Origin: Xiphophorus maculatus
Taxonomy: Eukaryota > Chordata > Actinopteri > Cyprinodontiformes > Poeciliidae
Reading direction: 5' to 3'
Length of the DNA stretch: 64,000 bases
Assembly (NCBI RefSeq): GCF_002775205.1
Contig: NC_036455.1
Location: forward strand, 2,580,501 to 2,644,500
Shown here: positions 46,901 through 52,900 of the stretch, piece by piece
Position numbering within the stretch: the stretch's first letter is position 1
Layout of the letters: each line of letters opens with the position of its first letter
Notes under the pieces: generated by a model
The model's input: only the letters and a program-made list of their open reading frames with translations
The model's database searches: none
What the model was told of the DNA's origin: nothing
Position numbers and translations under genes: made by a program

Positions 46901-49900
46901 ATGCATTTAGCATCATAGCAGTTTTAGAAAATCTCAGAGTTAAGGGAAGAATCTATTTTCTCTAGTAAATGCATATGTGACAGGTTTTTTCTAACACTAA
47001 CCAAACCAACTATTAACATAAGATAATAAAGCCAATTAATTGGCAAACAAGATTCCCGCAGTTATTTCGCTACAAATTTTCAGATTTTTGCTGACTCAAT
47101 TTTTTATATTGGTTTCTGCGTTTTTTTAAAAACGTAGACATTTTGAGTACAATGTATTATCTCTAAATCAGCTTGAATCGTAGTCAGAAGGGTTCACAAA
47201 TGATTAAACATACTATTTTTTGATGCTTAGCTCTTATATCCGCTTCATTTAAAAATCTACAGCTCTTTGACTGGCAAAAAGAAAAGGAAAGGGATACCCT
47301 AGACTAGACCTTAAAGCGTGAAGATGAATTTTGGCATCTTTATTAAATCTCTTAAAATACAATTTTTAATGCTTTCTTTGGCCGTTTGGAGCCAGTTAAA
47401 GAACCACAGTCCAGTTCAACTTGACGTTTATAGTTTGAAAAAGGCATCAGCTAAAGATTGGTATTAGCCCATCAAAATTTGACAAAAACCAGAGAAGAGA
47501 CCAGTCTGTTGAGGAGCATAAAATATGACAGATTAAGGCCCCTGACCAAACCAAGGTAGTTTTTAGCAACCTCCTACTGGTGGATGTTATTATAATCAGA
47601 CAACCTAATTTCCAGTCTATTGAAAAATGTTTTTAAAGCAGATACAAAATGTACCCAAAGTGGGTCTGAACTGACACATGGCTTTTGCACATCCCACACT
47701 TTGTACCTGATAACTTCAGGTAGGAAACATGCAAAACCCAAACTGGCGAAGGGCCGAAATGACCAGAACCCGCATAAAACATATAAAATACTATTTTCCA
47801 GGCACCAACTGTGGAAAAAGAAATATTGAGAGTGATTCCCAGACAAATGCACTATTGCAGCATCAATAAATTTTAGTGGCTTCAGTACACGATATGAAAA
47901 TCTGAAAAAGCAGCACACTTTTAACACCCATTTGGTTTAAATGTATGATGAAGCTAATAGGGCCTGGAAAAAGAAAACACTACAAACGCATTTCATTGGG
48001 ATATTATGAGAGAGGCGGGTAGTTTTACCTTCAACTACTCCATAGCTCACTGTGTTGGCGGTGGGAAAAAAAAAGAGGAAGAAAGGCAGATGAAGAGACA
48101 GGGGGGAGAGCCAGACTGCTACATAAAGGTTAAAAAAAGCTCAGAAAACACACACACTTCTTATATCTGACATTTGGTCAATAAACATACAAAATACAGC
48201 TGCAGACTGGTTAAAAAAGCTGGACAGCTTTACACATATTGTAACTTTAGCCATTTTAGCCAACAGTTTGACATGAGAACGCATACAATCTCAGGAACGG
48301 AGTTGGAAAATATGCTACATGTCTAGAGAAATGCTGATTAGAGGAAGTAACCGAAAAAGAAACTAAAGAAGAAGAAAAAAAACAAAACAAAGGAAGATAA
48401 ATATAGCAAGACAGAAGAACACAGTCTAGTTTTAAAGATACCCATGCAATTAAATACATAAGTACTTGTACTGGCCAAGACATCCACTTTAAAAGATATT
48501 TGAGCCTAGAGCTCCAGCAGCAGTTACAAACAGAAGTACAGCCAAGCACACCAACGTATTGAGGGTTTTTATGGACATCTGAATGGATCTGTCACATGTC
48601 TCCAGGAACCACATCTGTAGTCTATGATTTGTAATCTCCAACTAATGTCTTTGCTGTTAATAGAAATCGGAAAAACCAGCCTAAATTCTACAGCGGCGCT
48701 CTGACCGAATGTGGTTTATAGCAACTTATTATGTAGTTGTGAGCGTGCCTCATGGAAACGACTCACACAGCATTCTGATTATTAGGCTGCAAAACAAAAT
48801 GCAAGGATTTGACAGATGCGCAAACGTAGCCTTAGTTTGAAGACGAAACATTTCTTCAGCTGATAGACATCAAGCAAAGAAGATGGAAAAAGAAAAAACT
48901 TACTTGAGGGCATGGTGTACGTATCCTCTTCATCAACTATCTCTGCATAGTCGTCTGTCTCTGCAAGGTTAGAAATAGAAGAATATAAGAATACTACAAA
49001 TGGCACACATTACGACTCACAAAACCAAAGAAAGAGTAAAAGTGAAGCAAGTCCGGCTTAAAGTAACACCCTCGTTTCTCCTCTCCGTCCCTAACGCCCT
49101 CCCTTTCTCTCTCACACACACAAACGCTTGGCAGATCGCGTCAGCTGAGCATGTGTTGTGAATATCTGTCTGTTTGAGAGCAGCTGGATAGCAGGGAGTT
49201 ACTGAGGTGGAGCAGGAGCAGGAGGAGGAGGAGTAGAGCGAAAGCAGGAAAAAAAAGAAAGAAATGAGGAAGAAACTGGAGCGAGAGCTAAAACAGTTGG
49301 GGGAAAAAATGAAGTAGGATGAAATCAGTGACAAGTGAGGCAGATAAGACAAGATAGAAAGAGGAAGGGAAAGGATAAGAGCAGAGCCAGCAGAGAAAAG
49401 GGAGGCAAAAGATGGGCCGAGTCAGTCTAACCAGATGGTGGTGTTTAAAATAAAATCAGCGTGCAGACTCAGCTGTTGGAAACTAGAGTCGAACATCTGC
49501 TGTCCTGAACGTTGTCACAGTTCTGCTTGGGATTTATCAGGCTCAGTGGGAGTCGGACTAATTTATGTGAAATAAGCTCGCTGTGGCTGATTTCTGTCTG
49601 GAGGAATCTCAGAAGAGGAAAATGTGAAATAACAACTAGTGGTCTGTTAAATGAGGCAGGCCAAGCCAAACAAGCAACACAATGAGGAATGGCTCATTTA
49701 GATGCAACACAAACTTCAGTAGGCATGTTTCTAAGCCACAGCTGCTGCACGTTAGATCATGGCTTTATATTAATGATTAATTTACTTTTGACATATTTAG
49801 AGGAACTCCTGGTAAAACAAAAAGGGTAAAAAGCCTTTGGTGCCTCTGATGAATAGGTTGGACTTTATTGTTGCTACTGCAACAAGGACTTATGGACTCA

Positions 49901-52900
49901 CCTGAGCGACACAGCGGTTTCTATTTTAAACCGCTGATGTTGCTGCAGTTTAAATTTGACCCTTAATCAGCAATTAGTAACAAAAAAAAAGTCTAAAGAA
50001 TGAAGTGAATTACAAACACGACTCAACATACAAATTGTAGCCTCATAAGTTTGTGTAGCTATGTTCCAATAGTCTGGATGGACCACTACATTTCTTTCAC
50101 CGTTTGTTAGGACATAACTGATGAGTATAAACAAAGCATAAGAAAGTACAACTAGATAAATTATTTATGTCAAATAGACACGTAAGCAAATTGATATTTG
50201 TCTATTACCTCCATCTGCTCATTCAAAATCCGCCTCAGTTTTCTTGCTGTCTTTCTAAGATGTCTGAAAGTCGAGTTGGTGAGCAGGTGTGATGTGGAGG
50301 AGGAGCTTATTTATCTAAGCTCACTATAGACAATATAAACTGATGAAAGTTAAATTAAAGCAACTAGCTTGTAAAAAGATATGTAAACAATATTCAACCA
50401 TGTTTTAGCAATGCTTTTTATTTATCTCGGTTTTTCCAAACTTTTTTCTTTCTAATCTATTGTCAAGCCAAAGATTGGTACTTTATTGCATAGTTTTCAA
50501 CCTAAACTATACACTTGGTTTTTTAGCAAAATGGGTTTGTTTTCATTGAGCTGACTGCTGTTTAGTCAGTTACTCAGTTGGAGACGCATTCTAAGTAGAG
50601 ATGAACATTTCTCTTCAGTCCGTTTCAGCTTGGAGGAGAGAAAATTAACATGTTTCTCATTCTAAGTGTGTATGATTTAGCCAGCTCCTTATAGCCAGGA
50701 ATCCACCAACGTTAGAATCCAGCAAAACTCTCCCTCCTCTGGTCCTTATGTATGCGCAAGTGTAAATGTTCAAGACTGCAAATTTTGCTTTCTGTGTGGC
50801 TGTTTGAATGTCTGTTTCTTGAGAGAAAGGGAAACCTTAACAGAGCAATTGTGGGTTTCTTTGGTTTAAAGCAGACATGTTTATACTCTGTAGTATTGCA
50901 TTTTCAAAAAGAAAAAAAAATCAGATATTAGAACTGATTATGCTGCTCTACACAACAAGAAAATTTGATTATGCAGTAGGTGATAACTTAACTTTGAATT
51001 CTATTGTCTTTTTTGTCCTTACTTTGCTTAAACCACAGTAAATTTACATAAAAGCGCACACAGCTTTTGTTAAAGATGTAGGAATGTAAGCATCACGTCA
51101 AGCCGCACACCAAAATACACACGCTACCCTTTCCCTGGAGGGTGCAGAGAGTGTGCAGCCGGGGCAGGATGAGAAAGAAAGAACAGCACAGAGATTGATA
51201 AACAACAGTGTAACTTTACCGTCCCCGCTAAGGTCTTCTGTGAGGTCCAGGAGAGCATGCAGGAAATGGGACAGAAGAGGAGAGGTGGCAGCAGGACGGA
51301 AGACAGAGAAGCCGAGAGAAGACAAGACAAAAAAAGCAAACAGAGAGGTTAGAGCACGACAAGTCAAAGACTGTACAAGCAGCTAGTTAGAACTGTTTTC
51401 TGGAAAATGAGAGCAGACTTTCAGTAATACGCTGCGGTTAGTAAGAAACACTCTCTAAAGCAGGGCAAAGGTCAGGGGAAAGCAGGACAAATCAGATTTC
51501 ATTCAATGCAATATAAATATGTGGACACGGACAGTGTGTATCTTTCAGTTTTAGCTAATTATCATTCATTAGAAGTATACAGTCACAATGGGTTTTCAGT
51601 AGAGTCTCTGCTTTAGCTAAGCACATTTCTCCTTCTTCTGCACTGATAACAGTTTATAGGTCAAGTCTTGACTGCAGTGACCCACTGTTACTTTCTCAGG
51701 GCTTTGAGTTTCTCACAAATTGTTTTTGTTCACTTGCTTTTTTAGGTTTGGCCACACTTTCTTGATGGGTGTCAAGAGGCACGGCACCTTTATAGGAAGT
51801 TTTCCATCAGTGATGTGTGTAATTTCTCCAAAACCCATGCAGGGCACGCAGTAAACATGTGGCAGAACATTTAACAACATTTAACTTTACGGCCTAAACT
51901 CAAGATGGTACACAGAGCGTAAATCTGACACTAAACCTAAACACACCATGCCCACACTGATGACTTGATGTTGGCAGCATGATGGTGTTGGGATGCTTAT
52001 CCTTAGCAGGGATCAGAACAGATAAACTGAGCAAAATACAGGAAGAAACTGGGTTTAGAGGCATTTTTGTGTTAAAATGGCCCAGTGAAAGTAGAAATCT
52101 TCATAGAATTAAGAAGCTGTGCCAAGACTTGAAAAATGATGATTTCTTCTATCCTAATCTGACTAACCTTGAACAATTTTTTCCAAGACAATGAGTCTCC
52201 AGAAAATAGGTTTCTATAAGAGAAATACCAAAAAAGATCCATCTGGAGCCGTGAAAGGTGTTTCTAACCACATAATAAAATACACTGACGCTCGTAGTTG
52301 TAAAGTAGCAAAGAAGGAAAAAATTCAATGGGCATAAACACAAACATTTGCAGATAAAGTAAAAAACTTTAACCTCCAAAAATAGGTTAATCTTCCTGTA
52401 TAAACCGTTCTGAAAAGGTTTGACAGCTGCTGGTCAGATACACCCTGAGCTGTCCTGGTGGCAGCTGCCAAAGCTACTGAGTCACATGCCGCCCCATTCA
52501 CGGTGTCATCCAACCAGCTCATAAATACAACAGATGGGGACAATTATGCTTTAATCACAGCGTCTTAAAACAAAACATTTTCACCAGTATTTACTTGTAA
52601 TGACTTGACATTAAACACATGATGCAATAAAACAAAGATTGTATTAATAAAAAATGAAAGCTGAATTACTGAACTCCAACGCAAAAAACAGATCAGATGC
52701 ACAGAGAAAACAGCTGGTGACCAAAATCTGATAATATTCTTTTCAATGGACACTGGGCCTTAGTGGGCCAGAAACACAAAAATCCTGTGTTTCTGCGTCA
52801 CTGGCAGCAACATGCCAGTAATATGTTACTGGCATGTTCCTGCATGCCAGTAACATATTAGATATGTTGGATAAACTTCCACTGCCTTCACTCACACTTG

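Follow-up and report, generated by a model that had tools for sequence, protein, structure and literature searches.

Probable counterparts of the FAK box 6 and box 7 microexons in ptk2 of Xiphophorus maculatus

Close to the Tyr397 codon of a Xiphophorus maculatus ptk2 gene lie two very short segments with AG/GT borders that could enter the coding sequence without disturbing the reading frame. Are they the teleost counterparts of box 6 and box 7, the microexons of focal adhesion kinase (FAK), and on which side of the tyrosine would each add its residues? A neuronal isoform, FAK+6,7, was reportedly described by Burgaya in 1997 and by Toutant in 2000 and 2002. In mammalian FAK, boxes 6 and 7 relieve FERM inhibition, leading to more autophosphorylation, and box 7 isoforms autophosphorylate within the molecule (PMC1570463, PMC10376711). 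In the mouse brain, exons 14 and 16, which encode these boxes, are included increasingly from E12 to E15 as neurons differentiate (PMC1570463). Co-inclusion of the human 18-bp and 21-bp PTK2 microexons is given as 0.8 in excitatory and 0.7 in inhibitory neurons, and among glia as 0 in astrocytes, 0.02 in oligodendrocytes and 0 in OPCs (PMC9287170).

The window, that is, the whole 64-kb stretch of DNA analysed, spans C13:2580501-2644500 of a 704-Mb genome and carries ptk2 (FAK) on its minus strand. When 68 residues from the Tyr397 linker, boxes 6 and 7 included, and from the first kinase exon were searched against PDB sequences, the 16 hits at E ≤ 0.001 were all FAK. Profile search also located exons of the focal adhesion targeting domain (Focal_AT) downstream of the kinase part, at about 30409-31954. 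The host of both microexons is the FAK gene, not Pyk2. With exon numbers as in Corsi et al., the order along the minus strand is exon 12, box 6, Tyr397 exon, box 7 and kinase exon:

53893..53957, minus strand: exon 12, ending ...AISVS, phase 1, upstream of the boxes
51220..51237, minus strand: box 6 microexon (exon 14), 18 nt, EDLSGD, AG/GT borders, phase 1, stop-free, matching the human exon
48904..48960, minus strand: exon 15, with the Tyr397 autophosphorylation site (Tyr397 codon 48947-48949)
48029..48049, minus strand: box 7 microexon (exon 16), 21 nt, MSYGVVE, AG/GT borders, phase 1, stop-free, matching the human exon
45463..45560, minus strand: first kinase-domain exon (exon 17), first residue A or T depending on box 7 use
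31823..31954 (C13:2612323-2612454), minus strand: Focal_AT (Pfam focal adhesion targeting domain), profile positions 1-44

The original prediction gave the coordinates, AG/GT borders, lengths (18 and 21 nt), phase and absence of stops of both segments correctly, and the six plus seven added residues that it expected are borne out as EDLSGD and MSYGVVE, with the reading frame kept. It had also placed both inserts between the FERM domain and Tyr397. This holds for box 6, an 18-nt phase-1 exon that immediately precedes the Tyr397 exon. It is wrong for box 7, a 21-nt phase-1 exon that follows the Tyr397 exon and comes before the first kinase exon. Because the Tyr397 exon sits between the two microexons, box 7 lies downstream of the tyrosine; inserts on "either side of Y397" have been described (PMC10376711).

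In silico splicing of five combinations (no box, box 6, box 7, boxes 6 and 7, and these two together with the candidate box 28 exon considered below) gave an open, in-frame product every time. The junctions read AISVS-EDLSGD before the Tyr397 exon and MSYGVVE-ARDYEIQ after it, or MPS-TRDYEIQ when box 7 is skipped. Insertion of box 6 would lengthen the linker before Tyr397, and box 7 would lengthen it after Tyr397, up to the kinase domain. Only three solved FAK chains span this linker (2j0j, 2j0k and 6ty3); these are without inserts, and at box 7 their alignment shows a gap of 7 residues. The remaining 13 of the 16 PDB matches start at or beyond the end of box 7.

Borders and frame could arise by accident, and the two segments might be random in-frame AG...GT intervals rather than exons. 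The interval between exons 12 and 15 contains eight in-phase, stop-free AG-18-GT segments (119 when any length from 3 to 30 nt is allowed), and that between exons 15 and 17 contains 16 AG-21-GT segments (122 at any such length). Since such segments are common, borders and phase carry little weight by themselves. Requiring a pyrimidine tract, YAG and GTAA/GTGA cuts the 119 to two, box 6 and another segment of 12 nt, and the 122 to box 7 alone, although this filter was picked after the sequence had been seen. Comparison with the human PTK2 box exons, whose tails can be read from RT-qPCR primers over 17 of 18 nt for box 6 and 15 of 21 nt for box 7 (PMC9287170), is more telling. Box 6 of the window agrees with the human tail at 13 of 17 nt and box 7 at 13 of 15. 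Both values exceed everything seen in 1000 dinucleotide shuffles of each interval, where the best were 12/17 and 11/15, respectively. These matches support the proposed identity with mammalian FAK boxes 6 and 7. The segments resemble human exons not only in sequence but also in position, length and phase, and they recur in two ptk2 genes; published fugu and zebrafish exons also speak against accident (PMC1570463). The interval counts do not decide the matter by themselves, but the shuffles against the human tails do, and we reject chance as an extremely improbable explanation. It is very probable instead that the segments are, by descent, the teleost counterparts of FAK box 6 and box 7. Their inclusion, predicted to occur chiefly in neurons, would extend the linker before and after Tyr397.

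The second ptk2 copy, on contig C3, has both boxes as well:

C3, first base 20562930: box 6, GHISGD, AG/GT borders
C3, first base 20560265: box 7, KYYGLDQ, AG/GT borders

Their agreement with the human tails is again 13/17 for box 6 and 13/15 for box 7, reached by none of 1000 shuffles each (best 11 and 12). Compared directly, the window and C3 copies of box 6 share 11 of 18 nt (reached by 1 of 400 shuffles) with a BLOSUM score of 15 (0 of 400), and those of box 7 share 14 of 21 nt (0 of 400) with a BLOSUM score of 10 (27 of 400). This comparison is supportive but weaker than that with human, especially for box 7 at the protein level. Among the 150-nt intron flanks of both boxes, none scored above the best of 200 shuffles between window and C3; the highest, upstream of box 6, scored 23, where shuffles averaged 16.7 and peaked at 30. 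The flanks of the Tyr397 exon likewise stayed at or below the best of 200 shuffles. As no tested flank beats its shuffles, the box sequences appear to have been kept where the introns have not. The presence of both boxes in both copies suggests that the boxes may be older than the duplication that gave the two ptk2 genes. Length, phase, sides of Tyr397 and exon-tail sequence are those of vertebrate PTK2 boxes in general, although the fish residues (EDLSGD and MSYGVVE) differ at several positions. The mammalian box residues include SYGIDE and DEISGD; a literature search for these residues, and for box 28 of FAK, returned no paper.

Focal_AT also matches a gene on contig C24 and another on C15, both of them Pyk2-like in sequence at the tyrosine (SDIYAEI/SDIYCEI) and at the kinase start (RILGEGFFGEV). 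No box 6-like exon was found in the stretches around the equivalent tyrosine in either gene, the best match being 7/17 in each. For box 7, 650 nt of C24 held no AG-21-GT segment and 1130 nt of C15 gave no match better than 5/15; these scans were run without shuffles, and both C15 stretches include the tyrosine exon and are hence not pure introns. The C15 gene (L020) carries SDIYCEI as its autophosphorylation motif, in place of YAEI. Close to where its first kinase exon begins, it reads KYGIDRNDIVLGR, in which GID resembles the GIDE of human box 7. One could speculate that box 7 derives from a copy of such a Pyk2-like kinase exon start.

Upstream of box 6, both ptk2 copies carry a Fox-type splicing motif:

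51256..51261, minus strand: TGCATG, 19-24 nt upstream of box 6
C3:20562942-20562947, minus strand: TGCATG, 12-17 nt upstream of the C3 box 6

Such a motif is known from the intron upstream of box 6 in mammals and chicken (Corsi et al. 2006, PMC1570463). The sense strand of the 64-kb window holds 35 copies of TGCATG, and the 29.7 kb scanned in C3 hold 13, so that the chance of finding one in a given 40-nt stretch is about 2% in each. Within the window the ptk2 sense strand has 35 copies against 17 on the opposite strand, and the excess is present in both parts (22 versus 11 in 30400-64000, and 13 versus 6 in 1-30400). A cluster at 33902-35142, near the PWR exon described below, lies partly within GAATG-rich sequence, and we claim no function for it. 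A long TG/AC dinucleotide array occupies 34546-34668, shortly upstream of an apparent ptk2 exon.

The triplet TGC is an SRRM4-type motif. It occurs in the 60 nt that precede box 6 in the window and in C3, box 7 in the window, and the Tyr397 exon in both genes. It is absent from the 60 nt upstream of the C3 box 7, and regulation may therefore differ between the ptk2 copies. In size, frame preservation and upstream TGC, the boxes of the window look like SRRM3/SRRM4-dependent neuronal microexons. The C3 box 7, without TGC, does not fit this pattern, and the Tyr397 exon has the triplet too, making it unspecific. A paper on a zebrafish srrm3 mutant names Ptk2 autophosphorylation as a known microexon effect for some up-regulated transcripts (PMC13281805), and a microexon survey contains 402 mouse-zebrafish microexon pairs (PMC7821500). 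The main text of two zebrafish microexon papers does not mention ptk2 (PMC12626424, PMC12626420).

Further alternative exons of FAK have candidates or counterparts in the same gene:

53591..53677, minus strand: candidate box 28 exon (exon 13), 87 nt, 29 residues, in phase, stop-free, AG/GT borders, moderate confidence
33000..33008, minus strand: PWR microexon (exon 31), 9 nt CCGTGGAGG, Pro-Trp-Arg, after ...SYNDGVK and upstream of the FAT domain
C3:20535137-20535145, minus strand: C3 PWR microexon, 9 nt, at the known position

It is plausible that 53591-53677 is the box 28 exon. Its interval offers 48 AG/GT segments of 60-120 nt that are in phase and free of stops, the candidate among them. 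The candidate stands out by a GC content of 0.586 against an intron mean of 0.395, a value reached by 0.33% of non-overlapping 87-nt windows, and no such intron window reaches its seven CpG. It lies between exons 12 and 14, and its 29 residues come near in number to the 28 of the mammalian box. In the C3 copy, none of 11 candidates in the 360 nt scanned looked alike by eye. The 9-nt Pro-Trp-Arg exon upstream of the FAT domain is present in both ptk2 copies.

Alternatively, one or both microexons, though genuine by descent, could be unused, or not specific to neurons, in the window copy if the duplicates have split the splicing work between them. Zebrafish offers a precedent, having exon 16 in just one of its two ptk2 genes and exon 13 likewise in one, and exon 16 is also included outside the brain, notably in testis (PMC1570463). 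The C3 copy points the same way, as a scan of 360 nt gave no recognisable box 28 exon and its box 7 has no upstream TGC. In the window, however, box 6 and box 7 retain their frame and good splice sites, and we regard disuse or loss of neuronal specificity there as very unlikely. A somewhat less improbable, though still doubtful, idea is that the duplicates have partitioned neuronal splicing, such that the window copy keeps boxes 28, 6 and 7 and PWR while the C3 copy has lost box 28 and places box 7, which has no upstream UGC, under other control. If this were true, two genes would share a task that mammals accomplish with a single gene through splicing alone.

For the window copy we retain descent from FAK boxes 6 and 7, with inclusion predicted mostly in neurons. 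By analogy with mammals, both microexons would be included in neurons of X. maculatus, and the effect on autophosphorylation would carry over to the fish protein. The suggestion that these boxes are ancient in vertebrates is supported as well, but it was published in 2006, when exons 14 and 16 were reported from fugu and zebrafish and their origin was placed in the common ancestor of vertebrates (Corsi et al. 2006, PMC1570463). The microexon finding is a correct rediscovery of what that report made known. The fugu and zebrafish exons are the same ones, in genomes that also have two ptk2 genes each; in X. maculatus both copies have box 7, unlike in zebrafish, where one gene alone has exon 16. 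New here are a further species and the finding that each of its ptk2 copies holds the two boxes. The latter may already hold in fugu, because the relevant passage of the 2006 report names a missing exon 16 for zebrafish only (PMC1570463). One more teleost thus confirms the neuronal autophosphorylation boxes of FAK as a deep vertebrate feature.
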